A stretch of 64,000 nucleotides of DNA from Betaproteobacteria bacterium HGW-Betaproteobacteria-9 (GCA_002842215.1 PHCC01000008.1:1-64000), one strand, 5' to 3'. Shown: positions 4,425 to 32,916, counted from the stretch's first letter. A program made the numbers and translations. Notes: generated by a model from the letters alone, not told the origin.

Positions 4425-4504
4425 ATATGGGATGCATGTTTTAGAAGAACCCGGCCATGCCAGCGCCGATGGCGGACACCACCACCCCACGACAGGAGAC
4501 ACAC

Positions 4505-11804: not shown

Positions 11805-12604
11805 ACCCGTTCATTCAACGCCGTCGCATGCTGGGCAGTGGCCTGCTGGCGGCATTGCTGCCCGCAACGCTGCGAGCGCAGGAAGACCAGACCGGCGGCG
11901 ATCCGCTGGGCTCCATGCAATATCCCAGCCTGCGCGAGCAGATCATCGGCAAGTCAACGGCGACGTTCTCCGACGCGGTGATTGTGAAAGGTCCGGCCTT
12001 TGCCGACGACGCGATGAACGTGCCACTGCTGGTGGATGCGCGGGGGCTGAGCCATGTGGGTGGCGGTGTCGCGCGCATCCGTGTGGCGGTGGACCGCAAC
12101 CCGGTGCGCCAGGTGCTGGACTTCGAACCCCTGCGCGCGTTGCCCATGCTGGCGTTTCGCATCCGCATGGAGCAGGCCTCGCCCGTGCGGGCCTTCGTGC
12201 AGACGCGCGACGGCCAGTGGCACGTGGGCAGCACCTGGGTACAGGCATCCGGCGGCGGCTGCACGGTGCCCGGCCTCACCCGCGCCGACGGCTCCTGGAG
12301 CAAGACCCTGGGCCAGGTGCAGGCGCGCTTTTTCAACAACGTGCTCGAAGGCAGCCGCCGCCTGCGCGTGCGCGTGATGCACCCGATGGACACGGGGCTG
12401 GTCGCGGGCATCCCGGCCTTCTACATCGAAGAGTTGCAACTGATCGACAGCGCGGGCCAGGCCTGGTGGAAGCTGGCGCTGCACGAGCCGGTGTCGGAAA
12501 ACCCGCTCATCACCTTCGAGCTGCCGCCACAGGCCGTTCCCGGTCTCAGGCTGATCGGTCGCGACAACAACGGCAACCGCATCGATGCCGAGGTGGGGGC
12601 GTGA
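11801..12604 (+). CDS. Quinoprotein dehydrogenase-associated SoxYZ-like carrier protein
   Basis: The 267-residue exported protein (signal about 1-26, RRRMLGSGLLAALLPATLRAQ) carries a SoxY-like N-terminal part and a SoxZ-like C-terminal part. The key residue is the Cys in ASGGGCTVPG (near residue 150). In SoxY the equivalent Cys of GGCGG carries sulfur intermediates. Here the fused carrier accompanies quinoprotein dehydrogenases and its cargo is unknown. The start has GGAGG just upstream and overlaps the permease stop. Confidence 0.85.
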   Translation: MNPFIQRRRMLGSGLLAALLPATLRAQEDQTGGDPLGSMQYPSLREQIIGKSTATFSDAVIVKGPAFADDAMNVPLLVDARGLSHVGGGVARIRVAVDRNPVRQVLDFEPLRALPMLAFRIRMEQASPVRAFVQTRDGQWHVGSTWVQASGGGCTVPGLTRADGSWSKTLGQVQARFFNNVLEGSRRLRVRVMHPMDTGLVAGIPAFYIEELQLIDSAGQAWWKLALHEPVSENPLITFELPPQAVPGLRLIGRDNNGNRIDAEVGA

Positions 12605-13587
12605 AGCGGATCTGGTTTTCCGTTGCGCTCGCGCTGGCGGGCGCCGCTCAAGCGCAGACTGTCGCCGTGCCGCCGCCCGCCTCGAAGCCCGACGTCGCCA
12701 ACTTTAGCTACGACCTCCATCCGCGCCAGATCGCCGAAGGCACCTGGGTGATCGAGGGCGCCGTGCAGGACTTCAGCCGCGCCAACGGCTGCAACATCAT
12801 CAACACCGCCTTCATCGCTACCGGCGCGGGCGTGGTCGTCATCAACACCGGGCCGTCGCGCCTGTACGGCGAGCAGCAGCGCCGCGCCATCGAACGCATG
12901 ACCCAGGAACCGGTTGTGCGCGTGATCGAGCTCAACCTGCACCCGGACTACTTCTTCGGCAACCAGGCCTGGGCCGACAAACCCACGCAGGCGCTGCCCG
13001 GCAGCATCAGCGGCATGCAGGCCGAAGGAGCGGCCTACGCCGACAACCTCTACCGCCTCTGCGGCGACTGGATGCGCGGCACCGAGTCCACGCCGGCGCG
13101 CGAGGCCGTGCTGCCGCAGACCCTGCAGCTCGGCCAGCACCAGCTGGAACTCAAACGCCTGCACGGCCACACCGCCGACGACCTGGTGCTGCTCGACCAC
13201 CGCACCGGCGTGCTGTTCGCCGGTGGCCTGGTGTTTGCCGAGCGTGTGCCCACCACGCCGCACGCCGACTTCGCCGCCTGGCAGGCCAGCCTCGACGCGC
13301 TGGAGCAGTGGCACGCCAGCGGCGCGGTGAAGCAGGTGGTGCCCAGCCATGGGCCGGTCCACAGCGGTCTGGCCGGTGTGCAGCAGACGCGCGACTGGTT
13401 GCAGTGGCTGACCACACTCATGCAGGAGAGCGCCGAGCGCGGGCTCGACCTTGGTGAGGTGCTGGGCACGCCGGTGCCCGAGCGCTTCAAACGCTGGGCC
13501 GCGCAGCCCGCCGAGCTGCACCGCAGCCTGACGCAGTGGTACCCGCGTTACGAGCTGCGTGTGCTCGGCGCCCCCGGCGCACGCTGA
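12601..13587 (+). CDS. Quinoprotein relay metallo-beta-lactamase-fold protein (SoxH-like)
   Basis: This 328-residue exported protein has a signal peptide ending at AAQAQ and a metallo-beta-lactamase fold. The usual HxHxDH zinc motif is altered to NLHPDY, while GHTADD and SHGP further along retain His and Asp residues. Zinc binding may therefore be reduced or changed. Such proteins are encoded beside the SoxYZ-like carrier in quinoprotein clusters and are thought to act on its cargo. The GTG at 12601 overlaps the previous stop (GTGA); the longer ORF upstream is a shadow. Confidence 0.8.
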   Translation: MKRIWFSVALALAGAAQAQTVAVPPPASKPDVANFSYDLHPRQIAEGTWVIEGAVQDFSRANGCNIINTAFIATGAGVVVINTGPSRLYGEQQRRAIERMTQEPVVRVIELNLHPDYFFGNQAWADKPTQALPGSISGMQAEGAAYADNLYRLCGDWMRGTESTPAREAVLPQTLQLGQHQLELKRLHGHTADDLVLLDHRTGVLFAGGLVFAERVPTTPHADFAAWQASLDALEQWHASGAVKQVVPSHGPVHSGLAGVQQTRDWLQWLTTLMQESAERGLDLGEVLGTPVPERFKRWAAQPAELHRSLTQWYPRYELRVLGAPGAR

Positions 13588-13888
13588 TCCGCGTGCAGCT
13601 GTTGCAACGTGGTTGCGACATTTCTGAACACTGTCACAAGGGTGTCTCCTCACACGGTTCGGGTTTGGCGCAATTGCAGCCACCCGGGACCACTGGCGTG
13701 GCCTTGCGGGGGTATTCCGATCGGTGAAAACCCTAGGGTTTGACGGGTGCCAGGTGCTGGCACAGAAGTTGCCATTTCTTGCTCGCGTGCTTGCCCCGAC
13801 TGGAGAGGGACAACACCAGCGAGCAGCTGGGGCGGCACGGCCAGTTCCCCCAAGCCATCAACTTCACAAACGAGCAGGAGACCACCCA
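13588..13888 (+). promoter_or_regulatory. Regulatory region of the PQQ alcohol dehydrogenase
   Basis: This 301-bp gap contains an interrupted inverted repeat TGTTGCAAC-GTG-GTTGCGACA (13600-13620, one mismatch), which is a possible enhancer site. It also has GGGTATTCC (13710-13718) and the perfect palindrome AAACCCTAGGGTTT (13728-13741). The sigma-54 promoter (separate entry) follows. The inverted repeat is about 140 bp before the promoter, a usual distance for a sigma-54 activator site. Confidence 0.5.
13758..13772 (+). promoter_or_regulatory. Sigma-54 promoter for the PQQ alcohol dehydrogenase
   Basis: TGGCACAGAAGTTGC matches the -24/-12 consensus at all invariant positions, with ten bases between GG and GC. 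It lies about 117 bp upstream of the GTG start. Confidence 0.75.
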
Positions 13889-15610
13889 GTGAAACGCACT
13901 CTATTGAGCCTTTTGGTCATGGCCGCCACGGCCCACGTCAGCGCCCAGGGCGTGACCGACGCGATGATCGCGGACGACGCCAAGACCCCCGACAACGTGC
14001 TCAGCTGGGGCATTGGCACCCAGGGCCAGCGCCACTCGCCGCTGACCGGCATCAACGAAAAAACCATCAGCAAGCTGGTGCCCGTGTGGTCCATGTCTTT
14101 CGGTGGTGAAAAGCAGCGCGGCCAGCAGTCGCAGCCGCTGGTGAACAACGGCAAGATGTTCGTCACCGCGTCCTACTCACGCATCTACGCGGTCGACACC
14201 AAGACCGGCAAGAAGCTCTGGAAGTACGAGCACCGCCTGCCCGAGGGCATCATGCCCTGCTGCGACGTGATCAACCGCGGCGCCGCGCTGTACGACAACC
14301 TCGTCATCTTCGGCACGCTGGACGCCCAGCTCGTGGCGCTCGACCAGGAAACCGGCAAGGTGGTGTGGCGCGAGAAGATCGACGACTACTCCGCTGGCTA
14401 CAGCTACACCGCCGCACCCCTGATCGCCGAAGGCCTGCTCATGACCGGTGTCTCCGGTGGTGAGTTCGGCGTGGTTGGCCGCGTCGAAGCGCGCGACCCC
14501 AAGACCGGCAAGATGGTCTGGACCCGCCCCGTGGTCGAAGGCCACATGGGCTACAAGGACGGCAAGGAAAACGGCATCACCGGCACCACCAACGCTTCGT
14601 GGCCCGGCGAAACCTGGAAGACCGGCGGCGCTGCCACCTGGCTGGGCGGCAGCTACGATCCCAAGACCAAGCTGGCCTACTTCGGCACCGGCAACCCCGG
14701 CCCCTGGAACAGCCATGTGCGCAAGGGCGACAACCTGTACTCGGCCTCCACCGTCGCCATCGACGTGAAGACCGGCCAGATCAAGTGGCACTACCAGACC
14801 ACGCCGAACGACGGCTGGGACTACGACGGCGTGAACGAGTTCATCACCTTCGACATGGACGGCAAGCGCGTCGGTGCCAAGGCCGACCGCAACGGCTTCT
14901 TCTACGTGATGGACGCCGAGAACGGCAAGCTGCTCAACGCCTTTCCCTTCGTGAAGAAGGTGACCTGGGCCACCGGCATCGACCTCAAGACCGGTCGCCC
15001 GAACTTCGACCCGGCCAACCGCCCGGGCGACCCGACCGCCGCCGGTGGCGACGGTGCCAAGGGCAAGTCGGTGTTCTCGGCGCCGGGTTTCCTGGGTGGC
15101 AAGAACCAGATGCCCATGGCCTACAGCCCCAAGACCGGCCTGTTCTACGTGCCCACCAACGAATGGGGCATGGAGATCTGGAACGAGCCCATCACCTACA
15201 AGAAGGGCGCCGCCTACCTGGGCGCGGGTTTCACCATCAAGCCGCTGTTTGACGACCACATCGGATCGCTGCGCGCCATCAACCCCAAGACCGGCAAGGT
15301 CGAGTGGGAAGTCAAGAACGAAGCCCCGCTCTGGGGTGGTGTGCTGACCGCGGGCGACCTGGTGTTCTGGGGCACGCCTGAGGGCTACCTCAAGGCCGCC
15401 GACGCCAAGACCGGCAAGGTGGTGTGGCAGTTCCAGACCGGCTCCGGCGTGGTGGCGCCTCCCATCACCTGGACCGAAGGCGGCGAGCAGTACGTGAGCG
15501 TGGTCTCCGGCTGGGGCGGCGCGGTTCCCCTGTGGGGCGGTGAAGTGGCCAAGAAGGTCAACTTCCTCGAACAGGGCGGCTCGGTCTGGACCTTCAAACT
15601 CATGAAGTGA
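13889..15610 (+). CDS. PQQ-dependent alcohol dehydrogenase with lanthanide signature (methanol/ethanol family, PedH/ExaF/XoxF-like)
   Basis: This 573-residue periplasmic eight-bladed quinoprotein oxidises primary alcohols and passes electrons to cytochrome c. The signal peptide ends at VSAQ (20). Visible residues are the vicinal disulfide Cys124-Cys125 (MPCCDV), metal ligands Glu192 (GGEFG) and Asn269 (GTGNP), and catalytic Asp311 in WDYDGVNE. The extra Asp313, two residues later, is the hallmark of lanthanide-dependent members; calcium enzymes have Ala, Ser or Thr there. No cytochrome domain is fused. The GTG start is set by AGGAG at 13876. The substrate is not resolved by sequence. Confidence 0.93.
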
Positions 15611-15656
15611 TTCAGCGGCAGCGGGGCGCAGCCTGAAGGGGCGGCTCTGCCACATT

Positions 15657-15709
15657 GGGGCGGTGTCGGCCGCCGCACGCGTGCGAACGGTCGACCCCGC
15701 CCCTTTTTT
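15657..15709 (+). terminator. Terminator-like structure after the alcohol dehydrogenase
   Basis: GGGGCGG at 15657 pairs with CCGCCCC at 15697, followed by TTTTTT. The loop is long and itself GC-rich. It would end or attenuate transcription before the cytochrome gene. Confidence 0.5.
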
Positions 15710-15759
15710 GTCCCGTGTTTGTTTTCCATCTCTCTTTTCTTCTTTCAGGTAGCCCTGCC

Positions 15760-16083
15760 ATGCGTACCGTTCTGATCCTTGTCTCTGCCCTCGCTGGCTT
15801 CAGCGCCCCGGTCCACGCGCTCGACGCCGCCGCAGCCATCGAAATGGCCAAGGCCAACGGCTGCTTCTCCTGCCACTCGGCCAACGAAAAAGTGGTCGGT
15901 CCGGCCTACAGCGCCGTGCATGAAAAATACAAGGACGACAAAGACGCCGTGGCCTCGCTGGTGCAGTCCATCCAGTACGGCTCCAAAGGCAAGTGGGGCC
16001 GCATCCCCATGCCGCCGCACCCCGGCATGAGCCCGGCCGACATCAAGACCCTGGCCGAGTGGGTCATGACCATCAAACCGTGA
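15760..16083 (+). CDS. Small periplasmic cytochrome c (class I)
   Basis: The 107-residue protein has a signal peptide (about 1-20), a single haem site CFSCH and a distal Met in RIPMPPHPGM. It has the size and layout of cytochrome c-551/c-552 proteins. Its place right after the quinoprotein suggests it accepts electrons from it. The ATG at 15760 is chosen because the upstream part of the ORF lies in the terminator. It overlaps the next gene by 4 bases (GTGA). Confidence 0.88.
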   Translation: MRTVLILVSALAGFSAPVHALDAAAAIEMAKANGCFSCHSANEKVVGPAYSAVHEKYKDDKDAVASLVQSIQYGSKGKWGRIPMPPHPGMSPADIKTLAEWVMTIKP

Positions 16084-20606: not shown

Positions 20607-21389
20607 TCAGGGCTCCCACTCCGCCGTGAGAACGCCCCCTGTGAGAAACCCGCTGGGCACTTTTTCCTCCCGCTCGAACTTCACCAGCCCCTCGCCCTGG
20701 CAATACCACTCGCGGCTGATCAGGGGCACGTCGGTGAAGCCGTTGACCGGGTCGGTGTAGAGGTTCAGTCGGGCCTGGCCGACCACGCGCAGGCAGGGCT
20801 GGTGGGTGCTGCCGTCGGCGAGCTTCACGCTGTCGTCCACCGCTTCGATGCGCCAGGTCATCTGGGCTTTGTGGGTGTATTTCAGGTCGCGCGGGTGTTC
20901 GTTCCTGCGCTGGATCAGGTAGGGCACGGTGGGCGTGGTCCATTCGGTGCCGACCTGGTACGGCGCTTTCAGCACCCAGATGGGTTCGGCGTCGACGGTG
21001 GGCTCGTTGTCGATGTCGGGGCGGCTGGCGATGCGGCGGATGCCTTGCTCGTCCACCTTGAGGTAGTAGCTCACGCCGGCCGCGTGGTGGCGCACGGCGA
21101 CGGGCTGGTCTTGAAAGGTTGCGGGCTGGGCCACGCGCAGGGTCCATTGTTCGGGCTCGCGCGGTTCTTCGCCGGTGTAGTGCACGGCCAGGGTTTGTTC
21201 GTCGCCTTCGCGCAGGGGGAACCACTGATTGCCTTGGTTGCTGGGGTTGCAGGCGGTGAGGAGGAGGGTGGCTGCTGTGGCCGCGATGGTGATGGGTGAG
21301 GTGTGGGCGCGTGGACCCTCACCCCGACCCTCTACCGCGAGCGGGAGAGGGGGCAAGACACCGCGACTGGTTGGGGTGCGAGCGCTCAT
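20607..21389 (-). CDS. Lipoprotein at the end of the pqq operon, unknown function
   Basis: The 260-residue lipoprotein has the lipobox LLLTAC near residue 47. The mature part is mostly beta-strand, with no recognised domain. The ATG at 21389 overlaps the upstream stop by 4 bases, supporting this start. The first 30 or so residues are encoded by a family-2 repeat (LPPLPLAVEGRGEG) and push the signal peptide unusually far from the start. It is the last of four envelope genes that follow pqqE with overlaps or short gaps. Confidence 0.72.
   Translation of the reverse strand: MSARTPTSRGVLPPLPLAVEGRGEGPRAHTSPITIAATAATLLLTACNPSNQGNQWFPLREGDEQTLAVHYTGEEPREPEQWTLRVAQPATFQDQPVAVRHHAAGVSYYLKVDEQGIRRIASRPDIDNEPTVDAEPIWVLKAPYQVGTEWTTPTVPYLIQRRNEHPRDLKYTHKAQMTWRIEAVDDSVKLADGSTHQPCLRVVGQARLNLYTDPVNGFTDVPLISREWYCQGEGLVKFEREEKVPSGFLTGGVLTAEWEP
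21308..21353 (-). repeat. Family 2 repeat copy B, inside the lipoprotein gene
   Basis: CCCTCACCCCGACCCTCT and GCGGGAGAGGG form the characteristic GC-rich hairpin. It overlaps the first codons of the lipoprotein at 20607-21389. Confidence 0.65.
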
Positions 21390-21910
21390 TTTTCGGGTAA
21401 CTGGGCACGTGGCAAATCAGACAGCTTGATTTCCACCTTGTCGTTGCTCGCGGGCAGCAGCCAGGCCAGGCCGCCCTGGCCGCGCTTGGGTTCGGTGCTG
21501 CCCATCTGGGTGTTGCCATCGCGCGCCTTCTTCATGCCGTCGCCCAGGATGCGGTGCAGGTCTTTTTCGTACGGCAGGCGAAACACGCGAGGCATCGCCA
21601 GCGGTGCGTTGTCTTTCATGGGGTTGACCCAGATGAAGATCGCGCCCGTGTGGTCGCGAGCGGGGCTGGGTTCGTCGAACACGGCGGCGAGCAGCACAAA
21701 ACGCTTGGGCAATGCGTCGTCGCTCGGCCAGCCCGAGATGCCCAGCAACGTCTGTTGCCCGAACACATAAAACCCACTCACCAGCACCACCATGGCGGCT
21801 TTCAGGCCCCAGTGCCAGCGCGTGGCCAGGCACAGGCAAAGCAGCAGAAAGGCCAGCAGCGCGTACACCAGCACGAGCAGCAGCAACTGGGAGGAGACGG
21901 CAGGGATCAT
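21386..21910 (-). CDS. Small inner membrane protein in the pqq operon, unknown function
   Basis: This 174-residue protein has two N-terminal transmembrane helices (about 5-30 and 35-55) followed by a roughly 115-residue hydrophilic domain with FIWVNPMKDNAPLAMPRVFRL. No family is recognised. It lies 18 bp after the TolR-like gene and overlaps the lipoprotein gene, so it probably belongs to the same envelope complex. Confidence 0.7.
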   Translation of the reverse strand: MIPAVSSQLLLLVLVYALLAFLLLCLCLATRWHWGLKAAMVVLVSGFYVFGQQTLLGISGWPSDDALPKRFVLLAAVFDEPSPARDHTGAIFIWVNPMKDNAPLAMPRVFRLPYEKDLHRILGDGMKKARDGNTQMGSTEPKRGQGGLAWLLPASNDKVEIKLSDLPRAQLPEK

Positions 21911-21928
21911 GGTTGTTGTTGTGTGGGG

Positions 21929-22540
21929 TCAGAGACCGGCGCGTTGGACGATCGTCAAAGGCCGGGTGTTGAGGTCGATCACGTTGCCGCTCTCGTCGAT
22001 GCTGAAACGCACCAGGGTGCGCTCGTCGCCTTTGGCCGGAATCTGCTGTGTGCCGGTGTAGACGATCTCGGCCTGCGGGTTGACCTTCACCACCGCCACC
22101 GACACGTCCACCGGCAGTTTGTCCTTGCTCTCGTAGTAGTGGGCGTTGACCACGTACTCGCCCGGCACCAGACCACGCAGGGTGACGATCTCCTGCCGGA
22201 TCGGGCTGCTGATCTCGCGGCCGTTGACCATGACGCTGTTGTTCTTGGCGCCGCGGTCGTCACGGTCGAGGTGCAGCATGCCGGCGTCGCGCTGACGGAA
22301 CCACAGCGTCTTGCCGCCGGGTTCCAGTACCCAGGCGTCGACGTCGTTGGGGTTGTTGTCGGGCCAGGACACGGTGACGATGAACTCGGCCTTGGCCGGC
22401 ACGTCGCCAGCCTTGCGGGCCTTGGGATTGAACGAGAGCAGGGCGATAACAAAACAGAAGACGAAGGCGATCAACATGTTGAACAACATGTCGTAGAACG
22501 GATCGGTCTCGGTGTCACGAACCGCTCGGCCGATCGCCAT
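21929..22540 (-). CDS. TolR/ExbD-like membrane protein with a YfaP-like periplasmic domain
   Basis: The ATG at 22540 gives 203 residues. One N-terminal helix is preceded by an Asp-containing segment (DPFYDMLFNMLIAFVFCFVIALLSF), the arrangement of ExbD/TolR. The periplasmic part (EFIVTVSWPDNNPNDVDAWVLEPGG) resembles YfaP/DUF2135 beta-sandwich domains rather than the usual TolR domain. It overlaps the TolQ-like gene by 26 bases. Together they look like a proton-driven envelope motor of a non-standard type. Confidence 0.68.
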   Translation of the reverse strand: MAIGRAVRDTETDPFYDMLFNMLIAFVFCFVIALLSFNPKARKAGDVPAKAEFIVTVSWPDNNPNDVDAWVLEPGGKTLWFRQRDAGMLHLDRDDRGAKNNSVMVNGREISSPIRQEIVTLRGLVPGEYVVNAHYYESKDKLPVDVSVAVVKVNPQAEIVYTGTQQIPAKGDERTLVRFSIDESGNVIDLNTRPLTIVQRAGL

Positions 22541-23279
22541 GGGGCGGCTCCTGCGGTGGGGGCATGGGCAACGAGGCGGCCAGCGTATCGGCCACGAGGG
22601 CGTCGGCAAAACGATCGAGCCGCATGAGCTGCAGGCCGAGCAGGATGTTGCCGGTGAGGCCGGTCACGGTGGTGAGCAGCGCGATGCCGAGGCCGCCGGT
22701 GAGGTTCTTCAGCAGCAGCGATGACTGGCTGGCGTCGAAGCTGTCCATCTGCCCCAGGTGCAGTGCAAGGATGGAGAAGCCGATCACCTTGCCGAGCAGG
22801 CCCAGCTTGAGCTGGATGCCGTTGAGCCACCAGGCCATTTCGTGCGGGCCGTGGGCGCGCTCGCCCAACACCTGGAGGCAGATGCTGCGGTCGGCGCCGG
22901 GCAGGGCGCAGCCCTGGTGGTATTCGGTGCTCCAGGCGGGCGTTGCAGCACCGCCAGCGTGTATCTGGGTGTCGAGCCACTGGCGCTGCTGACCCAGCAC
23001 CCAGGCCCGGCGTCCGGCCCAGACGGAGCAGCCGATGAACAGCAGCACGATGGTGACGGTGAGCCCGGTCGGATCGGCCTCGACCAGGCGGTGCCAGGCG
23101 CCGGCCTGCCACAGCAGCAGGGCGCCGAACAGCAGCAGGCCTATGTAGGCCAGCCAGAGCAGGAACAGGCCGTGCTCCATGCGCTCCAGCGCGAGCGGGC
23201 TGTGGCGAGCGCCGGGGATGCGGCTGGCCAGCGCAGCACCGAGCATGCGGTGGTGCGGGGCGCTGGCGGGTGGGGTCAT
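22515..23279 (-). CDS. MotA/TolQ/ExbB-like proton channel protein
   Basis: The ATG at 23279, 8 bp after the pqqE stop, gives 254 residues with three or four hydrophobic helices (GLFLLWLAYIGLLLFG; TVTIVLLFIGCSVW; KVIGFSILALHL; GLGIALLTTVTGLTGNILLG). The last has the Gly/Thr pattern of TolQ/ExbB channels. The preceding pqqE and the TolR-like partner suggest a dedicated motor linked to PQQ production or export. That link is inferred from position only. Confidence 0.72.
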   Translation of the reverse strand: MTPPASAPHHRMLGAALASRIPGARHSPLALERMEHGLFLLWLAYIGLLLFGALLLWQAGAWHRLVEADPTGLTVTIVLLFIGCSVWAGRRAWVLGQQRQWLDTQIHAGGAATPAWSTEYHQGCALPGADRSICLQVLGERAHGPHEMAWWLNGIQLKLGLLGKVIGFSILALHLGQMDSFDASQSSLLLKNLTGGLGIALLTTVTGLTGNILLGLQLMRLDRFADALVADTLAASLPMPPPQEPPHGDRPSGS

Positions 23280-23287
23280 GGGTGTGT

Positions 23288-24427
23288 TCAAGCGGCGGGA
23301 TGCAGGTGGCGCGACTCCGCATCGCTGCGGAACACGATGGGGATGCTGCGTCGCGTGGGTGCCTGCTTCACGATCTGCACCACCTTCTGATGGTGCGGCG
23401 ACTTGCTGCACACCGGGTCGGCCTCGGTGGCGTCGCCGGTGATCAGGAAGGCCTGGCAGCGGCAGCCGCCGAAGTCCTTGTGGCGCTCGTCGCAGGAGCG
23501 GCAGGGCGCCTTCATCCAGCTGTCGCCGCGGAAGGCGTTGAAGGCGGTGCTGCGCTGCCAGATCTCGGCGATCGGCGTGTCTTTCACGTTGGGCAGTTGC
23601 AGGCCCGGCAGGTCGCGCGCGTTGTGGCAGGGCATGGCCAGGCCGTCGGGCGCGATGGAGAGGAACACCGAGCCCCAGCCGTTCATGCAGGCTTTGGGCC
23701 GCTCCTCAAAATAGTCGGGCACCACGAACAGCACGCGGCATTTGGGGCCGGGCTTGCCGTCCTGTTCAGCGCGGAAGGCATTCACCATGGCCTCGGCTTG
23801 CACCAGTTCCTCGCGCGTGGGCATGAGGTGATCGCGGTTGACCCAGGCCCAGCCGTAGTACTGCGTGTTGGCGAGTTCCAGGTACTCGGCTTCCAGCGCC
23901 ACCGCCATCTCGATGATCTTGTCCACGTGGGGTAGGTTGTGGCGGTGCAGCACGCAGTTCATCACCATCGGCCAGTCGTGTGCCTTGATGAGCTTGGCGA
24001 CGCGCTGCTTGAGTTCGAAGGTCTTGGTGTGGCTCAGAAAATCGTTCAGCTCCTTGGTGGAATCCTGGAACGAGAGCTGCACGTGGTCGAGCCCGGCGTC
24101 CTTCAGCTTCTGCGCGCGAGTCGGCGTGAGGCCTACGCCGGAGGTGATGAGGTTGGTGTAGTAGCCCAGGCGGTGGGCTTCCTGCACCAGCTCTTCCAGA
24201 TCGTCGCGCAGCAGCGGCTCGCCGCCCGAAAAACCGAGCTGTGCCGCGCCGAGCTTGCGCGCCTGGGTCATCACGTCGACCCATTGCGCGGTGTCCATCT
24301 CGTCCTTGAGGTGCGCGTGCTGCGTGGGGTTGTAGCAAAACACGCAGTGCAGCGGGCACTTGTAGGTCAGCTCGGCCAGCAGCCACAGGGGCTGACCGAC
24401 GGTGGGGGTTTCAGTCAATCCAGCCAC
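23288..24427 (-). CDS. pqqE: PqqE, radical SAM peptide cyclase of PQQ synthesis
   Basis: The 379-residue radical SAM enzyme forms the C-C crosslink between Glu and Tyr of PqqA. It has the CxxxCxxC cluster motif (KCPLHCVFC), the GGEP motif and the C-terminal SPASM-type cysteines (KACMNGWGS, PCRSCDERHKDFGGCRC). The GTG at 24427 overlaps pqqD by 17 bases and gives the usual family length; the longer ORF start lies inside pqqD. Confidence 0.95.
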   Translation of the reverse strand: MAGLTETPTVGQPLWLLAELTYKCPLHCVFCYNPTQHAHLKDEMDTAQWVDVMTQARKLGAAQLGFSGGEPLLRDDLEELVQEAHRLGYYTNLITSGVGLTPTRAQKLKDAGLDHVQLSFQDSTKELNDFLSHTKTFELKQRVAKLIKAHDWPMVMNCVLHRHNLPHVDKIIEMAVALEAEYLELANTQYYGWAWVNRDHLMPTREELVQAEAMVNAFRAEQDGKPGPKCRVLFVVPDYFEERPKACMNGWGSVFLSIAPDGLAMPCHNARDLPGLQLPNVKDTPIAEIWQRSTAFNAFRGDSWMKAPCRSCDERHKDFGGCRCQAFLITGDATEADPVCSKSPHHQKVVQIVKQAPTRRSIPIVFRSDAESRHLHPAA

Positions 24428-24674
24428 GGCGTTGTCCCTCTTCAAGAAGTGCTTGCACCTCGGGCGCAATGCCTTGCGCGTTGAACGCGGCTTCCAGCTC
24501 GGCAACGATGGCATCGACCGTTCGCTCGCCGTCGCAGCGCTGCAGGATTTCGGCCGCCGACGGGTTGAGCTGCACCATGCCCTCCGGGTACAGCAGCACC
24601 CAGCGGCTCTGCGCTTCCTCGTACTGCAGACGGAAGCGGCGCGAGAGCTTGGGTTGACTCGGTAACGTACTCAT
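24411..24674 (-). CDS. pqqD: PqqD, PqqA-binding chaperone
   Basis: This 87-residue protein of the RRE fold delivers PqqA to PqqE. It is recognised from LSRRFRLQYEEAQSRWVLLYPEG and LNPSAAEILQRCDGERT. It overlaps pqqE and is separated from pqqC by a family-1 repeat of about 110 bp, an unusual break in this operon. Confidence 0.95.
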   Translation of the reverse strand: MSTLPSQPKLSRRFRLQYEEAQSRWVLLYPEGMVQLNPSAAEILQRCDGERTVDAIVAELEAAFNAQGIAPEVQALLEEGQRRGWID

Positions 24675-24786: not shown

Positions 24787-25518
24787 TCATTGACACGCTT
24801 TTTCTATGGCGTCCAGCATGGTCCACAAAATGTCCAGCTTGAACTGCAGGATGTCCAGCGCATGGTGTTGCGCTTCACGGGTATTGAAGTGCGACAGCGT
24901 GACCTGCAGGCCGTGTTCCACGTCGCGGGTGGCGAGTGGGATGCGGCTGCGGAAATAGGCCAGGCCACTGGCCTCGATCCAGGGGTAGTGCGTGGGCCAG
25001 GTGGCCAGGCGGTCCTTGTGGATCTGCGGCGCGAACATCTCTGTGAGCGAGGAGCACACGGCTTCCTGCCAGGGCGCCTTGGCCGCGAAGTTCACATAGG
25101 CGTCGCACGCAAAACGCACCGCGGGCACCACGCCCTGCAAAGACCACAGGTCTTCGCGCGATATGCCGACCGCTTCCCCCAGCCGTGTCCAGGCTTCAAT
25201 GCCGCCTGCGGCCGAGCCCTCGTAGTCGCCATGGCCGTCGTGGTCGAGGATGCGTTCGATCCACAGCCGGCGGTGTGCGCGGTCCGGCATGTTCGCCAGG
25301 ATGGCGGCGTCCTTGCGCGGGATGCAGATCTGGTAATAAAAGCGGTTGGCCACCCAGCAGCGGATCTCGTCGGGTGTGCAGCCGCCCGAGTTCATGCGCA
25401 CGTTGAACGGGTGGTGGATGTGGTAGCTGCGGCCCTTGTCGCGCAGCTGGGCCTCGAAGGCTTCGGGGCTCCAGGCGGGCAGGTGGCTGTGATTGCGGAT
25501 GGCTTGGGCGATTTCCAT
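24787..25518 (-). CDS. pqqC: PqqC, pyrroloquinoline-quinone synthase
   Basis: The 243-residue oxidase catalyses the last, oxygen-dependent ring closure and oxidation. Landmarks are [13 protein letters not shown], the ILDHDGHGD segment and YFRSRIP. It starts 11 bp after pqqB ends. The length is close to the 230-250 usual for the family. Confidence 0.96.
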
Positions 25519-25529
25519 GACCGGGCATT

Positions 25530-26447
25530 TCAGAACGTGATCTCCATACCGTCGTGGGCAACTTCGATGCCGTGCGCCGTGAGTTCGGCGCGTTCGTCGG
25601 AGTCTTCCACCAGCATGGGGTTGGTGTTGTTGATGTGGATGAGGATCTTGCGGATGCCGGCGGGCAGCTGGTCGAGCTGTTCAATCATCCCGCCCGGGCC
25701 GCTTTGCGGCAGGTGGCCCATGTCGAGCGCGGCCTTCGTCGAAAGGCCAAGGCGCTGCATTTCGTCGTGGGTCCAGAAGGTGCCGTCAATCAGCACCACG
25801 GCGCACCCGCTCATGAGCTCGATCAGCGCGGAGGTGACCTCCGCCAGGCCCGGCGCGTAGAACGCGCGCTGCCCGGTTGCGGGGTTGGTGATCAGCAGGC
25901 CGATGTTGTCACCCGGGCGCGGGTTGCCGCGGAAAGGCGAATACGGGGGCGGCTTGGACGAGAGCGACACGGTCTGAACCTGCAGGCCTGGCAGGGCGGG
26001 CACGTTCACCGTGCTGCCGTCGATGGGCAGCGCCTGGCGTTGCACGCCGCAGTAGTGCGACAGGATGCCGGTGATCGGGAAGCCGCTGGAGATGTCGGAG
26101 AACACCTCGGGCGTGGCGAGCAGGGGCAGTGGTGTCTGGCGTTCGCGCAGCATCAGCAGGCCGGTGACGTGGTCGATCTGCGCGTCCATCAGCAGCACGG
26201 CGGCGATGCCGCTGTCGCGGATGGCGCGGGCCGGCTGCAGCTCGGGCGCTTCGCGGATCTGGGTCAGGATGTCTGGCGAGGCGTTGACGAGCAGCCAGTC
26301 GCTGCCGTCGGCGCTGATGGCGATGGACGACTGTGTGCGCGCACGCGCCTGGAGCTTGCCACGGCGAAAGCCGTCGCAGTTGGGGCAGTTGCAGTTCCAT
26401 TGCGGGAACCCACCGCCAGCCGATGAACCGAGAACCCGGATGCGCAT
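25530..26447 (-). CDS. pqqB: PqqB, PQQ biosynthesis hydroxylase of the metallo-beta-lactamase fold
   Basis: The 305-residue protein starts with the family signature [24 protein letters not shown]. It has the altered metal motif [11 protein letters not shown] in place of HxHxDH, and IHINNTNP near the end. PqqB is reported to hydroxylate the crosslinked Tyr of the PqqA-derived intermediate. It lies about 90 bp after pqqA, with a hairpin in the gap. Confidence 0.96.
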
Positions 26448-26688: not shown

Positions 26689-27807
26689 ATGAACAGCAAT
26701 AACGATGCCACGAAAGACCAACCTAGGGATACCCCTGAGTCGGTGCTTCCCGCGGGTCGGCGCAGCGCCTGGCCAGCGCCAGCCTACCTGTCTGTCGGAC
26801 GCGGTCACCGCTTGGCATTTCGCACCGTGGGCAACCCAGATGGCGAGCCCTGGCTGCTGGTGCACGGTGGCCCCGGCAGCAGTTGCCAGCCGGGCATGCT
26901 CGCGCCCCTGGACCTCACGCGCCAGTGGGCGGTTGCGCCCGACCAACGCGGCTGTGGAGCGAGCCGCCCCAGAGGGAAAACCACGGCCAGCACCACCCAC
27001 GCGCTGGTGGCCGATATGGAGGCCTTGCGGTGCCACCTCGGCATCAAGCGCTGGTCGCTGCTGGCGGGCTCGTGGGGAACGGTGGTGGCACTGGCCTATG
27101 CACGAGCCCACCCGCAGCGGGTGCGGCGCCTGGTGTTGCGCGGCGCGTTTGCGCTCAGCCGGCGCGAGGTGGGCGGGCTGCTGCAGCCTTCTCGCCGGGT
27201 GCAACAAATCCTCGGCCGCGAGGCTGCATGGCCCGCCGCGCCGGGTGTGTCACTGCCCGCGACACTGGCCCGGCTGAGACAACTGCTTCAAAGTGGAACA
27301 CCCGGTGTTGCAGGCCTGCGCGTGTCGCGCCGCTGGGCCTTGCTGGAGTCGGCCTGCGTCTCGAACGGCATGCGCCGGGCGCTGCGGCAGGCGGTGACGC
27401 AGGCCTCGGCGAAACAGGTGGCGGCGATGCGGCGCGACTGGGCCGCGCTGCGGCGCCGACAGCGAAAAGCACAGGCGAGCCGCCACCGCCTCGCCCCGCG
27501 CCCGTCCGACCGGGCGGCGCTGCACAAATTCCGCATCCAGGCGCACTACCTGCAGCACCGCGGCTTTGTGCGGCCCGGTGCGCTCGACGGCGCCGTGACG
27601 GGCCTGGCGCGCCTGGGTGTGCCGGTGGACTGGGTGCACGGCGCCTGCGACGCCGTCTGCCCGCCCGCCAACAGCCGCGCCTGGGCCGCTGTGGGCCGTC
27701 GTCTGGCGCCGCAGCAGGTCACGCTGAGTGAGCCCTTGAGCGGCCACCTGGGCGCCGAGTCGGGCATGCTCGCGGCTTTGCGCGCGGTGGTGCGGAGACC
27801 GGGATGA
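26689..27807 (+). CDS. Alpha/beta hydrolase of the proline iminopeptidase type
   Basis: The 372-residue protein has the HGGPG oxyanion motif, nucleophile Ser in LLAGSWGTVV and a late His in LSGHLG, typical of prolyl aminopeptidase-like S33 hydrolases. The middle part is unusually rich in Arg. The start is uncertain: ATG 26644, ATG 26689 or GTG 26743. The last would clear the pqq promoter. Being divergent from pqqA, it could trim the PqqA peptide, a step whose peptidase (PqqF-like) is otherwise missing here. That is speculation. It overlaps the next gene by 4 bases. Confidence 0.72.
   Translation: MNSNNDATKDQPRDTPESVLPAGRRSAWPAPAYLSVGRGHRLAFRTVGNPDGEPWLLVHGGPGSSCQPGMLAPLDLTRQWAVAPDQRGCGASRPRGKTTASTTHALVADMEALRCHLGIKRWSLLAGSWGTVVALAYARAHPQRVRRLVLRGAFALSRREVGGLLQPSRRVQQILGREAAWPAAPGVSLPATLARLRQLLQSGTPGVAGLRVSRRWALLESACVSNGMRRALRQAVTQASAKQVAAMRRDWAALRRRQRKAQASRHRLAPRPSDRAALHKFRIQAHYLQHRGFVRPGALDGAVTGLARLGVPVDWVHGACDAVCPPANSRAWAAVGRRLAPQQVTLSEPLSGHLGAESGMLAALRAVVRRPG
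26696..26710 (-). promoter_or_regulatory. Sigma-54 promoter candidate for the pqq operon
   Basis: On the minus strand TGGCATCGTTATTGC, followed by T, has TGGCA at -24, TTGCT at -12 and exact spacing. It predicts a leader of roughly 75 bases before pqqA. Just upstream are CCTAGG and GGGATACCC, related to motifs before the alcohol dehydrogenase. The element overlaps the first codons of the divergent hydrolase ORF. Confidence 0.65.
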
Positions 27808-28868
27808 AGGCGCGTCCGGTCCGCGCACGACGTCGCGCCGCACAAGGCCTTGCGATGAGCGCCGTGCTGACCCGCTGGCTGATCGCGCTGCTGTGCTTCG
27901 GCGGTTTCATGGTGCCGTCGCACGCGGCCGGCCCGTCAACCGATTGCCAGACGGCCGATGCCGTGCCGTGGCAGCCGGTGGCGCCGGGTATCTGGGTCTG
28001 GCCAGCGGCGGAGAACGGCGAGGTGTCGCCCGCCAACGCCGGCCATGTGCTGCCCACCAGCGTGGTGGTCAACCGCGGCGAGGCGCTGGTGATCGACCCC
28101 GGTCCGAGCCACCGCCACGGCCTGCGCGTGCGCGCGTCGCTCGCCTGCCGTTTCAAGGCGCGTGTGCGCTGGCTGGTGAACACCCACGCGCACGCCGAAA
28201 ACGTGATGGCCAATTCGGCCTTTGCCGACCTGCTGGAGGCAGGTCAGCTGGAGATCCTGGCCAGTGCCGCCACGCGCAGGGCCATGCAGCAACGCTGCCC
28301 GGATTGCCTGGCCAGTCTGACCACCCGCGCGGGTGCGACGGCGATGGCGGGCACGCACATCGTGCTGCCCAGCCGCACGCTGGCGGTGGGCGATCGGCTG
28401 CGCGTGGGCCTGCTGAGCTTGCGGGTGCAGGCCGTCGAGAACGGCCACACCGAGGGCGACCTGGTGCTCTGGAGCGCCCGCCACCGCGTGCTGTGGGCGG
28501 GGGGCCTGGTGTACGACGGCCGCGTGCCCGAACTCGCGCAGGGCAGCCTGGACGGCTGGCTCGCGGCGCTGCCGCGGCTGCAGGCGTTGCGGCCGCGGCA
28601 AGTGATCGGCACGGTATGGTCCCGCGCTCCCGCAGCCGAAGCGCCACCGCCTGCGCTGGGAGCCACAGAACGCTATCTGAAGGGGCTGCGAGCCCGCGTG
28701 TTGCTGGCGATGGACCAGGGCCACCAGCCGCAGGAAACCGCCTGGGGCGAGCTACCGGCCTACCGCGACTGGGCAGGGTACAGCGAGCGCCACGGCTTCA
28801 ACCTGCAGCGCGCCTGGCGCGAGCTGGAACCCGTGTGGATGGAACAGGGCGCGGCGCCTACCAAGTAA
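27804..28868 (+). CDS. Quinoprotein relay zinc metallohydrolase (SoxH-like), second copy
   Basis: The 354-residue exported protein (signal near residues 18-42, LIALLCFGGFMVPSHA) has the metallo-beta-lactamase fold. Its zinc motif is THAHAEN, close to HxHxDH but with Glu and Asn, and NGHTEGD follows. It belongs to the same functional class as the protein at 12601 but diverges in sequence. Translational coupling (ATGA) with the alpha/beta hydrolase puts both in one short operon divergent from pqqA. Confidence 0.8.
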   Translation: MKARPVRARRRAAQGLAMSAVLTRWLIALLCFGGFMVPSHAAGPSTDCQTADAVPWQPVAPGIWVWPAAENGEVSPANAGHVLPTSVVVNRGEALVIDPGPSHRHGLRVRASLACRFKARVRWLVNTHAHAENVMANSAFADLLEAGQLEILASAATRRAMQQRCPDCLASLTTRAGATAMAGTHIVLPSRTLAVGDRLRVGLLSLRVQAVENGHTEGDLVLWSARHRVLWAGGLVYDGRVPELAQGSLDGWLAALPRLQALRPRQVIGTVWSRAPAAEAPPPALGATERYLKGLRARVLLAMDQGHQPQETAWGELPAYRDWAGYSERHGFNLQRAWRELEPVWMEQGAAPTK

Positions 28869-28973: not shown

Positions 28974-31139
28974 TTACAACGTCCCCGGAGGGAGCAGATC
29001 CTTCTTGCGGTAGATCGTGTTGCGGGAAACGCCCAGCGCCTTGGCCGCAGCCGATACGTTGCCCTTGTGCAGCCGCAGCATCTGCGCCATGGCACTCAGC
29101 GCCACGTCTTCGAGGCGCGTGCCTTCGGGCACCGTGGGTTCGGCCATTGGGGCGGTGTTGGGCACATCGGGCAGCGGCTGGGTCGGGGCTATCGCTCCCA
29201 TCAGGCGCGGCGGGATCGGGTTGGGCAGGCCGTGTTCCAGCTCCTCCATGAAGTCGTCAGGCAAATGGCTGAGTTCGATCACGCCCTGGCAGCCCACCAT
29301 GACCACAGCGGTGCGCAACAGGTTGTGCAACTGGCGGAAATTGCCCGGCCAGTGGTAGCGCTTGAAGATGTTCATGACCTCGGGCGAGATGCCGATCTGC
29401 GCGCCGTTTTCACACAAGGCTTTGAGGATCTTGCGCACGACCAACTCGAAATCGGAGCGCTCGCGCAGCGCCGGCAGCCGCACCACCAAGCCGTTGAGCC
29501 GGTAGTACAGGTCTTCGCGGAAGTCGCCGCGCGCGATCATGTCCTTGATGTTCTTGTGGGTCGCGCAGACCACAGCCACGTCCACGTCGACCTCCTTGCC
29601 CGCGCCCAGCGGGCTGACCCGGCGCTCCTGCAGCACGCGCAGCAGCCGCGCCTGCAGGTGCTTGGGCATGTCACCGATTTCGTCAAGGAACAGCGTGCCG
29701 CCGTGGGCCTGCAGGATCTTGCCGATGGCGCCCTTCTTGCGCGCACCGGTGAAGGCGCCTTCTTCGTAGCCGAACAACTCGGACTCGATCAGCGTCTCGG
29801 GAATCGATGCGCAGTTGACCGAAACGAAGGGCTGACCGGAACGGTCCGAGTCACCATGGATCGCCTGCGCGAGCAGGTCTTTGCCGGTGCCGGTTTCGCC
29901 CAGGATCATGACCGGGATGTCCTTGCCCGACACCATGCGCAACTTGTGGATCACCGACGACACCTGGGGGTCACCGGTGTCCAGGTATTGCAGCGATGAG
30001 AGCTGCGTGCGTTTGACGGGGGGTTTGGCCGGCGCGTGCGCTGCCGCGCCCTGACCCGTTTCCGCGGCGAAGGCCTGCGGTCCCTGGGCGGCATCTGGCC
30101 GGGCAGCCGACCACGGATGGGCCGTCTTGACCTTGACGCGGCACCACACCGAGACGCCGTTGTGCAGCACCAGCTGCTTGGGGTTGGGCATGGCGCCGCT
30201 GAACAGTTCGAACAGCGCCGAGATCGGGATGCCGAACAGCGAAGAAAAGGTGTGGGCCTTGAGCGCAGCGAAGGGCAGGCCGATCTGGAACTGCCCGCTG
30301 CGGTTGGCCGAGATGAAACGCCCCTCGGGCGAGAACACGGCGATGCCTTCGACCAGCGTGCCCAGAAACTCGGAGCGGGTGTGGAAGTGGATGCGGATCG
30401 CCTTCGGGAAGATGTCGGCGAACATGTGGTTCTCGATCATCTGCGCCGACATGCGCACCAGCGCCAGTGTGTGCTGGTGGAAGCTGCGGTGATCGCCGGT
30501 GACGTCGAGCGCGCCGATGACCTGGCCGTAAGGGTCAAAGATCGGCGCGGCGGAGCAGGTGAGGAATTTGTTGGCGTTCAGGTAGTGCTGGTTGCCGTGC
30601 ACCGTGAGCGCTTCTTCTTCGGTCAGCGCGGTGCCGATGGCGTTGGTGCCTTTGGTCTGCTCGGACCAGTCCATGCCGGGCGTGAGCGCCACGCGCGAGG
30701 CTTTTTCCAGAAAGTCGGTGTCGCCCAGCGAGTGCAGCACCATGCCGCGTGCCGAGGTCAGCAGCACCATGCTGTGGGTGTTGACGATCTGGTCGTACAG
30801 CGTCTCCATCACGGGGGCGGCGTGCTGGAAGAGAAAGCGGTTTTCGTCCAGCGCGTCGTTCAACACGCCGCGCGAAGGGCTGGAGAAGTCGGGTTCGGCC
30901 TGCGCCGTGATGCCATAGGCCTGCGAACGCTGGTGGGACTGGCCGATCAGGTCGGGGTTCGGGGAGGCGCCAGCTGGCGCAGCCCCGACGCGTCCTTCGT
31001 CGGGGCGCGTGTGGATGCCTGCACTCATGTCGTCTCCAGGGTCGGGCGGAAATCCCCCCCAGTAGTCCATGGCCCAGGGCGCATCGCACGGGGTCAGGAG
31101 GGGTGTTGTCTCGTCTGTGTCTTGTTGGTCTTGGCTCAT
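28974..31139 (-). CDS. AcoR-type sigma-54-dependent activator
   Basis: This 721-residue enhancer-binding protein has a variable N-terminus, a GAF-type sensor (about 100-235) and a possible PAS segment (255-335). The AAA+ domain has Walker A GETGTGKD (414-421), the sigma-54 contact loop GAFTGA (461-466) and Walker B LFLDEIGD. A Fis helix-turn-helix (NVSAAAKALGVSRNTIYRKKDLL) ends it. AcoR-like proteins activate -24/-12 promoters of alcohol, acetoin and aldehyde pathways. The ATG at 31139 has GAAGAGA upstream; the extra 39 codons in the track are unlikely. It is the only full sigma-54 activator in the window. Confidence 0.92.
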   Translation of the reverse strand: MSQDQQDTDETTPLLTPCDAPWAMDYWGGFPPDPGDDMSAGIHTRPDEGRVGAAPAGASPNPDLIGQSHQRSQAYGITAQAEPDFSSPSRGVLNDALDENRFLFQHAAPVMETLYDQIVNTHSMVLLTSARGMVLHSLGDTDFLEKASRVALTPGMDWSEQTKGTNAIGTALTEEEALTVHGNQHYLNANKFLTCSAAPIFDPYGQVIGALDVTGDHRSFHQHTLALVRMSAQMIENHMFADIFPKAIRIHFHTRSEFLGTLVEGIAVFSPEGRFISANRSGQFQIGLPFAALKAHTFSSLFGIPISALFELFSGAMPNPKQLVLHNGVSVWCRVKVKTAHPWSAARPDAAQGPQAFAAETGQGAAAHAPAKPPVKRTQLSSLQYLDTGDPQVSSVIHKLRMVSGKDIPVMILGETGTGKDLLAQAIHGDSDRSGQPFVSVNCASIPETLIESELFGYEEGAFTGARKKGAIGKILQAHGGTLFLDEIGDMPKHLQARLLRVLQERRVSPLGAGKEVDVDVAVVCATHKNIKDMIARGDFREDLYYRLNGLVVRLPALRERSDFELVVRKILKALCENGAQIGISPEVMNIFKRYHWPGNFRQLHNLLRTAVVMVGCQGVIELSHLPDDFMEELEHGLPNPIPPRLMGAIAPTQPLPDVPNTAPMAEPTVPEGTRLEDVALSAMAQMLRLHKGNVSAAAKALGVSRNTIYRKKDLLPPGTL

Positions 31140-31463
31140 GTGATTCTCTTCATATCTGTCCCATGAATCAACACTGGGTATTCCCGGTATGAAACATGTT
31201 GTGCCGACTGCCTCTTTGTGAGACATAGCAATTAACCCGCCACCGGGTGCAGCCACCTGGGAGCCGCTGGCGGGTGCTTTTGAATGCCAGTCTGTGACAG
31301 CGCGACGGTCCGATGAGGCGCAAATGATTCAAATTGGAACAACTGTGCCCGGCGCATTCGCGCTGGATGGCCGCCTGTCCAAGGATTTCAAGGCACCCGG
31401 TGTCGGTGGCCCGCATATTGCTGATTGGGGGTGGAAGCCCTTTGACAACAGGAGACATCCCCC
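31140..31463 (+). promoter_or_regulatory. Divergent regulatory region between the AcoR-type gene and the cytochrome
   Basis: The 324-bp region contains GGGTATTCC at 31176-31184, shared with the alcohol dehydrogenase region. It also holds the sigma-54 element at 31407 (separate entry). No small ORF here looks real. Confidence 0.45.
31407..31421 (+). promoter_or_regulatory. Sigma-54 promoter for the PedF-like cytochrome operon
   Basis: TGGCCCGCATATTGC, followed by T, has GG and GC with exact spacing and TTGCT at -12; one -24 base deviates. It lies 42 bp before the ATG at 31464. Confidence 0.65.
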
Positions 31464-32007: not shown

Positions 32008-32916
32008 ATGCCGTCCGTTTCGAAAAGCTTTCAGGAAAACCCGCCTGTGACCCACGGCCTGACCCGCCGGCAGACCCTGGCCGTGCTGATGCCTCTGGTC
32101 GCCGGGCACTACTCGGTGTACGCGCAGACCGAGCTGACCGATCTGGCCCGCATCCGTGCCAACGGCATGTTGAAGGTGGCGGTGTACAAGGACAACGCGC
32201 CGTTCTCCGATGGTGCGGCGGCCGAGATGAAGGGGTTGGATGTGGCGCTGGCCGAAGCGCTGGCGCGCCAGATGAGCCTGAAGCTTTCGCTGCTGCCCTT
32301 CGATGCCGGCGAGAACATGGGCGACGACCTGCGCAACATGGTCTGGAAGGGCCACTACCTAGGCTATGGCCCGGCCGACGTGATGCTGCATGTGCCGGCC
32401 GACAAGTACCTCGCACAGAAGAACCCGCAGGTGATGATCATGGCGCCGTACATGCGGGAGTCGGTGGTGCTGGTGCACGACACGCGCAAGCTGGCCGACG
32501 CCGCGGCGCCCGAAGACCTCAAGGGCGTGCAGCTCGCCGCCGAGCGCGGCGCGGGTGCGGCCAGCGTGCTCATGGGCTACGGCGGTGGCCTGTTGCGCAA
32601 CCAGGTGTCGATCTTCAACACCGGCACCGAAGCGGTCCAGGCCACGGTGGACGGCAAAGCGGCGGCGGCCCTCGTGACGCGGGCGCAGGCCGAGTCGGTG
32701 CTGTCGCGCAACCCGGGCAGCGCCACCCATTTCCGCATCACCAAGCTCAACTTCAACAACGGCATCGCCGACACCGGCTGGCCCGTGGGTATGGCCATCA
32801 AGTCGGGTCACAAAGAGCTGGGTCTGGCACTGGAAGCGGCACTCAAGTCGCTGCGTGAGAGCGGTGAGCTGCTGAAGATTTTTCAGCAGCACGGCATGAC
32901 GCTGACCGCGCCTTGA
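32008..32916 (+). CDS. Quinoprotein dehydrogenase-associated periplasmic binding protein (MxaJ/XoxJ-like)
   Basis: This 302-residue member of the family-3 solute-binding fold has a twin-arginine-like signal (LTRRQTLAVLMPLVAGHYSVYAQ), GMLKVAVYKDNAPFSD and a C-terminal NTG/DTGWPVGMAIKSG segment. Members sit beside quinoproteins and XoxG-type cytochromes and are thought to help activate the dehydrogenase rather than transport a solute. It lies 46 bp after the cytochrome, in the same operon. Confidence 0.85.
   Translation: MPSVSKSFQENPPVTHGLTRRQTLAVLMPLVAGHYSVYAQTELTDLARIRANGMLKVAVYKDNAPFSDGAAAEMKGLDVALAEALARQMSLKLSLLPFDAGENMGDDLRNMVWKGHYLGYGPADVMLHVPADKYLAQKNPQVMIMAPYMRESVVLVHDTRKLADAAAPEDLKGVQLAAERGAGAASVLMGYGGGLLRNQVSIFNTGTEAVQATVDGKAAAALVTRAQAESVLSRNPGSATHFRITKLNFNNGIADTGWPVGMAIKSGHKELGLALEAALKSLRESGELLKIFQQHGMTLTAP

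Follow-up and report, generated by a model that had tools for sequence, protein, structure and literature searches.

The window analysed here, meaning the whole stretch of 64,000 nucleotides, comes from Betaproteobacteria bacterium HGW-Betaproteobacteria-9 (GCA_002842215.1, PHCC01000008.1:1-64000). It carries the pyrroloquinoline quinone (PQQ) genes pqqABCDE and, directly behind pqqE, four genes encoding a channel-like membrane protein (Q), a single-helix protein with a periplasmic domain (R), a two-helix membrane protein (M) and a lipoprotein (L). We refer to the four-gene cassette as QRML and to its core as QRM; comparison loci and genomes are numbered with the prefixes L and G, respectively. 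An earlier note on this DNA had placed the four genes behind pqqE with gaps or overlaps of at most 26 bases, and both gene order and coordinates were confirmed (Table 1): 8 bases separate pqqE from Q, Q and R overlap by 26, a gap of 18 lies between R and M, and M and L overlap by 4. Its list of parts in a tight operon also stands, as seen from the features of Q, the two helices of M and the lipobox of L. Since the junctions are so tight, a single transcript for the pqq genes and QRML is likely. The cassette is conserved in about 25 loci of Hydrogenophaga and other Comamonadaceae, mostly at 55-99% identity, which shows that these are real genes and not chance frames.

Q is homologous at the family level to MotA, TolQ and ExbB. 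The window Q gives a weak match to MotA_ExbB (PF01618; 14.7 bits, cut-off 22.9), and 24 of 33 Q relatives match this family at E <= 0.01, the best at 2.3e-11. A Q profile searched against solved structures picked out MotA/TolQ/ExbB-type chains, weakly. The layout of Q is MotA-like: a loop of about 65 residues divides its hydrophobic segments into two pairs. In 5:2 motors, a pentamer of channel subunits surrounds a dimer of axle helices (PMC9389320).

R possesses a single N-terminal helix with a conserved aspartate, as do TolR and ExbD. The helix motif, DPFYDMLFN, contains the PFxD signature, and its Asp17 aligns with TolR Asp23 and the ExbD aspartate. Among 33 R proteins this residue hardly varies, and each of the seven aligned phage forms has it. 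R variants without Asp17 were seen in L086, L089, L095 and L248 (DPITAVLFK, DVTTAVLFK, DPFAVMLFK); the first three of these loci also contain a second M-like match. The periplasmic domain of R is not of the TolR/ExbD type, with no match to the ExbD/TolR Pfam family among the 33 members, and is predicted to be beta-rich (single-chain model, predicted local distance difference test score 83). The earlier note had likened this domain to YfaP. That resemblance holds weakly at the family level, where 12 of the 33 members match DUF2135 (best E 0.0039), but not for the window R, which has no match; R also differs from YfaP/DUF2135 proteins in being anchored in the membrane behind a motor-like helix. 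A fold search with the R model returned no confident solved relative, its low-probability top rows not being used, and a solved-structure search with R gave a single match, to a virion protein at E 0.36, which is not relied on. Five residues, D66, D68, D94, D95 and E117, are invariant and, judged from their conservation, could form a metal site.

M was modelled as two helices followed by a small alpha/beta domain, and belongs to no known family; a fold search with the model found no confident relative, low-probability top rows again being set aside. A lipobox is present in 52 of 57 L relatives (LLTAC in the window L), and 14 of 23 L members show DUF3108-like matches. The true start of L may lie downstream of the start of its open reading frame.

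The pore threonine pair of TolQ is incomplete in the window Q. Thr204, within the retained TT203-204, occupies the position of TolQ Thr178, but in the motif GLLGKVIGF the position of TolQ Thr145 is taken by Lys164. In the Tol system, Thr145 and Thr178 of TolQ together with TolR Asp23 are the proposed proton gate or relay, and growth defects are severe for T145A and moderate for T178A (PMC12965293). The lysine is fixed in 28 of 28 members of one Burkholderiales clade, all with R helices of the DPFYDMLFN type, and the R tree separates this clade from the rest by a branch with 97/95 support. The observation covers the window plus L016-L044 and L117-L136. Threonine is kept in four other Burkholderiales loci (L123, L124, L126, L131) and in the other bacterial Q relatives with a readable motif; six canonical ExbB/TolQ-type loci found by motif search in the same genome also retain it, with GxxGT intact. 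Because the lysine sits where TolQ has its relay threonine, proton coupling in the Burkholderiales clade is uncertain. Of the proton-driven, envelope-spanning complex proposed in the earlier note, the idea of an ion-driven envelope complex is supported; the coupling to protons is not secure. Lys164 may have changed the ion coupling, or may gate or lock the ring, such that coupling in this clade would be altered, gated or lost. More than anything else, it is the pore lysine that makes it uncertain whether the window complex is a motor. An alternative is that the cassette contains no motor at all, the Lys164-Asp17 pair locking the ring in the Burkholderiales clade into a static scaffold for R, M and L. 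The fixation of the lysine and the critical role of the TolQ threonine at this site speak for such a scaffold, but it would need neither Asp17, nor TT203-204, nor the glycine motifs, all of which are conserved, and we consider it quite unlikely.

QRML shares with TolQ-TolR, ExbB-ExbD and MotA-MotB the family-level match of Q to MotA_ExbB, the GxxG(T)xxGF and ALxTT motifs, the N-terminal R helix with its PFxD aspartate, and adjacent genes in the same order. It differs in an axle domain that is not TolR-, ExbD- or OmpA-like, in the additional partners M and L, in the 2+2 MotA-like layout of Q and, in the Burkholderiales clade, in the lysine at the pore threonine. The cassette contains no tolA, tolB or pal, its neighbours being pqq and PQQ-dependent alcohol dehydrogenase (ADH) genes, and no TonB match was obtained with any of the four proteins. 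Zorya (ZorA-ZorB) likewise pairs a MotA-like channel with a single-helix partner, and some Q relatives weakly match ZorA models; unlike Zorya, QRML has no ZorA tail and no ZorB match. A Zorya-like defence function was considered and rejected, the window proteins matching no PADLOC model. A literature search restricted to open papers found no description of the gene set. We conclude that QRML is a real, conserved and, in the searchable literature, undescribed gene set that looks like a relative of the TolQR/MotAB 5:2-type ion motors, R not being a member of the TolR/ExbD family.

The distribution of the cassette follows PQQ-ADHs rather than PQQ synthesis. R was found in 38 of 251 genomes of the family, a 39th match (G787) being marginal and excluded, and these were compared with 38 sampled R-lacking family genomes, ADHs being called by TIGR03075 above its curated cut-off. 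A PQQ-ADH is encoded in all 38 R-bearing genomes and in 8 of the 38 lacking R (Fisher p 8e-14; the genomes are related, so this p-value and the one below overstate independence). The corresponding counts for pqqE are 29 and 3. Of the nine R-bearing genomes without pqqE, seven have a completeness of 99-100% and no more than 70 contigs, and pqqC was also absent from both of the pqqE-less genomes tested, G234 and G488. The distance from R to an ADH gene on the same contig is at most 20 kilobases in 23 of the 38 genomes, and that to pqqE in 10; QRML adjoins the ADH in five genomes without pqqE (G234, G868, G752, G770, G885). In a wider class and order sample of 80 genomes, all 13 classed as having full QRML encode an ADH and 11 of them both pqqE and pqqC; for R of any kind, ADHs occur in 30 of 45 R-bearing versus 7 of 35 R-lacking genomes (p 4e-5).

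A part for QRML in PQQ biosynthesis, for example in exporting PQQ to the periplasm, had been raised in the earlier note. QRML does follow pqqE directly in some 20 loci of Hydrogenophaga and its relatives, and lies beside pqq genes in another family too (L044). The common flanks of the roughly 25 loci are a PQQ-ADH, a metallohydrolase and a sigma-54-type regulator, with pqqBCDE directly in front in all but a few; three loci (L038, L039, L042) have QRML and the same flanks without pqq genes. Outside Hydrogenophaga, the cassette mostly lies far from pqq genes, the finding that the earlier note itself had named as counting against its proposal. Since QRML persists without pqqE or pqqC, and beside the ADH, we reject synthesis and export, a role we regard as highly improbable. 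A PqqB-like metallohydrolase (30-47% identity) lies upstream of QRML in L117, L119, L134, L043 and others, at loci without a pqqCDE match.

The ADHs concerned are mostly of one type. The Asp-x-Asp lanthanide signature, W-D-[YF]-D-G, is present in 34 of 36 ADHs beside QRML or QRM, some of the 34 being closely related; the exceptions are a calcium-type enzyme (L130, WDFSG) and a divergent one (L086). The second aspartate is essential in lanthanide ADHs according to the title of Good et al. 2020, as cited in PMC12997753. Calcium-type ADHs are commoner in R-lacking genomes. Overall, the association of the cassette with PQQ-ADHs is firm and that with the lanthanide type suggestive. In L091, an ADH, a PedF cytochrome, a binding protein, a SoxYZ-like carrier, a zinc metallohydrolase and a CXXCW protein are followed directly by QRML. 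Some Burkholderiales loci have ATP-binding cassette (ABC) genes of the PedC or PQQ type and a PqqB-like gene before QRML (named by eye), and SoxYZ-like, metallohydrolase and CXXCW genes lie close to QRM in a putatively Bradyrhizobium-like locus. QRML stands among the genes of the quinoprotein relay or ped cluster (PedF, SoxYZ-like carrier, zinc metallohydrolases, CXXCW protein, PedA1A2BC) and accompanies the same dehydrogenases, but it forms no part of the ped cluster described in Pseudomonas, and it has been assigned no role. The corresponding ABC transporter of Pseudomonas putida, PedA1A2BC, takes up lanthanides (PMC12997753). At L113 and L114, where QRM is missing, L relatives adjoin PQQ-ADHs; at L112 the neighbouring PQQ-ADH is a remote one. 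Several L paralogues lie away from QRM in many gammaproteobacterial genomes (L097-L115), some beside PQQ dehydrogenases and most with other neighbours. The genes of the window are listed in Table 1.

Table 1 Genes of the window, and Q-R-M positions in the Rhizobium phage loci L330-L333.
Feature	Position	Strand	Remarks
pqqA	26610-26536	-	24 residues, EITMY motif
pqqB	25530..26447	-	NCBIfam match
pqqC	24787..25518	-	NCBIfam match
pqqD	24411..24674	-	NCBIfam match
pqqE	23288..24514	-	open frame; profile match starts near 24403; NCBIfam match
Q, MotA/TolQ/ExbB-like membrane protein	22515..23279	-	254 residues, four hydrophobic segments
R, N-terminal helix and beta-rich periplasmic domain	21929..22540	-	weakly DUF2135/YfaP-like
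M, two transmembrane helices and small alpha/beta domain	21386..21910	-	helices 7-29 and 34-58
L, lipoprotein of DUF3108-like family	20607..21389	-	lipobox LLTAC
PQQ-dependent ADH, methanol/ethanol family	13724..15610	+	WDYDGVN (Asp-x-Asp, lanthanide-type signature); N-terminal extension of frame probably not real
Small c-type cytochrome adjoining ADH	15655..16083	+	weak c550/c551 matches; CFSCH in sequence
ABC substrate-binding protein of PQQ-ADH systems	9673..10965	+	TIGR03863
PedC-type ABC permease	10947..11804	+	TIGR03861
Frame with C-terminal half = quinoprotein relay zinc metallohydrolase 1	11671..13587	+	TIGR04558
Relative of quinoprotein relay zinc metallohydrolases	27804..28868	+	below cut-off
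Sigma-54-type regulator	28974..31256	-	kept with cluster even where pqq genes absent
Periplasmic binding protein, weakly MoxJ-like	32008..32916	+	TIGR03871
PqqU-related TonB-dependent receptor	4457..6604	+	613 bits against cut-off of 1200
Q-R-M in Rhizobium phage, L330	4537-6041		
Q-R-M in Rhizobium phage, L332	4534-6023		
Q-R-M in Rhizobium phage, L333	4646-6022		
Q-R-M in Rhizobium phage, L331	4271-6132		

The receptor gene in the window brings in another candidate role: QRML could work as an ExbBD-like module that energises one particular outer-membrane receptor importing PQQ or lanthanides, such as the PqqU-like protein itself. PqqU imports PQQ in a TonB-dependent manner (PMC12124388), and 17 of 20 QRML genomes tested encode PqqU-like receptors, although none of these reaches the PqqU cut-off and the remaining three genomes show no such receptor. 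The cassette has no TonB gene, R lacks an ExbD-type domain, and the genome already holds the canonical ExbB/TolQ-type loci with their intact motif. This role therefore appears improbable, and the suggestion of TonB energisation in the earlier note falls for want of both a TonB partner and a TolR/ExbD-type domain.

We tentatively favour the view, which may well be right, that QRML forms a membrane machine accessory to periplasmic PQQ-ADHs, mainly of the lanthanide type, acting outside PQQ synthesis and most likely in holoenzyme assembly. By homology, Q would form a ring like that of MotA or TolQ, with R helices as its axle. Ions passing Asp17 of R would drive the movement of R, and the beta-domain of R would stand in for the periplasmic domain of TolR or ExbD. 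M would sit beside the ring in the membrane and L would be the partner specific to PQQ dehydrogenases, the two linking the machine to its target. We place that target downstream of PQQ supply because the cassette tracks PQQ-ADHs even in bacteria that are unable to make PQQ and have to take it up from outside. The likeliest job would be the delivery or insertion of PQQ, metal or both, the remodelling of the apoenzyme, or its handing on to the cytochrome partner. MxaACKLD, envelope accessory genes beside a PQQ dehydrogenase, serve calcium insertion into methanol dehydrogenase. The role proposed here in making the holoenzyme is comparable, a likeness drawn from descriptions; Mxa serves a calcium enzyme, whereas QRML mostly tracks Asp-x-Asp enzymes. 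No Mxa family in NCBIfam or Pfam reached the reporting limit for any of the four proteins, and no direct sequence comparison was made.

Several observations weigh against this view of QRML as a dehydrogenase accessory. Lys164 replaces the threonine whose loss is so harmful in TolQ, fold searches with single-chain models gave neither M nor the R domain a confident match, and the sampled genomes are related. Asp-x-Asp ADHs also occur in six R-lacking genomes (G670, G677, G678, G294, G327, G384), which makes the lanthanide-type link weaker than the link to PQQ-ADHs. No QRML-type genes appear in the published table of the ped cluster of Pseudomonas putida KT2440, a strain that uses the lanthanide enzyme PedH (PMC12997753); this indicates that the cassette is not universally needed. 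XoxF, in turn, is reported not to need mxaACKLD (PMC11845868). Finally, in some gammaproteobacteria, and in phages, QRM has no connection with PQQ at all, and the basic action of the core is therefore not specific to PQQ.

Outside the family, QRM without L is also present in gammaproteobacteria and Bradyrhizobium-like genomes. In gammaproteobacteria (L079-L081, L083, L085-L087), it is flanked by L,D-transpeptidase-like and VWA-FHA genes, with tilS, accA, dnaE and other housekeeping genes nearby (all named by eye). An R profile search returned 85 viral contigs, of which 80 were kept; Q stands beside R in 78 of the 80, and M is present as well in 43. The contigs are marine (viral loci L167-L246 and L253-L329), and the neighbours on those examined include a phage DNA polymerase, a helicase and SbcCD. 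The order Q-R-M recurs in the Rhizobium phages P10VF (genes 191-193), RHph_N34 (gp145-147) and RHph_N3_19 (genes 065-067); in Rhizobium phage 16-3, R is p040 and the Q-like protein p038, with small genes in between. All of these phage proteins are annotated as hypothetical, and in the isolates, as in the marine contigs, the cassette has sbcCD or replication genes close by. Profile E-values in the phage isolates range from 3e-32 to 7e-50 for R, 2e-5 to 5e-11 for Q and 6e-3 to 1e-7 for M, all generous owing to a very small search space, and two marine contigs gave stronger Q and M scores than the isolates. PHROG models found no match in the three proteins of two marine contigs. P10VF Q has alanine at the pore threonine position. 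The phage proteins searched included no relative of L, which points to QRM as the core and to L as a dehydrogenase-linked addition.

These occurrences could also be read as signs of a general envelope machine, concerned with maintenance of the outer membrane or cell wall, that alcohol oxidisers need and keep in the same cluster. The L,D-transpeptidase-like and VWA-FHA neighbours in gammaproteobacteria and the presence of QRM in phages would fit; the PQQ-ADH in every R-bearing family genome, and the L relatives that adjoin ADHs even without QRM, would not, and we judge such a machine rather unlikely. A broader proposal, speculative yet possible, is that QRM is a new family of ion-driven machines with an axle domain of its own, recruited at least twice. 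Bacteria would have joined it to L for cofactor or metal loading of PQQ dehydrogenases, one clade re-engineering its pore by the fixed Thr-to-Lys exchange, and marine and rhizobial phages would use a three-gene version on the host envelope.

Little is understood of the way in which periplasmic PQQ dehydrogenases, and the lanthanide enzymes in particular, acquire cofactor and metal, and QRML provides a concrete, deletable candidate that tracks these enzymes even where PQQ cannot be made. To the few 5:2 ion motors known it would add an undescribed member with a natural Thr-to-Lys exchange at a proton-relay position, and it shows that phages carry such motor-like genes. Spread by plasmids was considered and set aside: in a plasmid collection, Q was unmatched and R had matches, at about 29% identity, in Azospirillum replicons alone. 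Downstream of QRM in one viral contig (L308, 11551-12519), a phage gene resembles, by eye, peptide transporters of the SbmA/BacA type.

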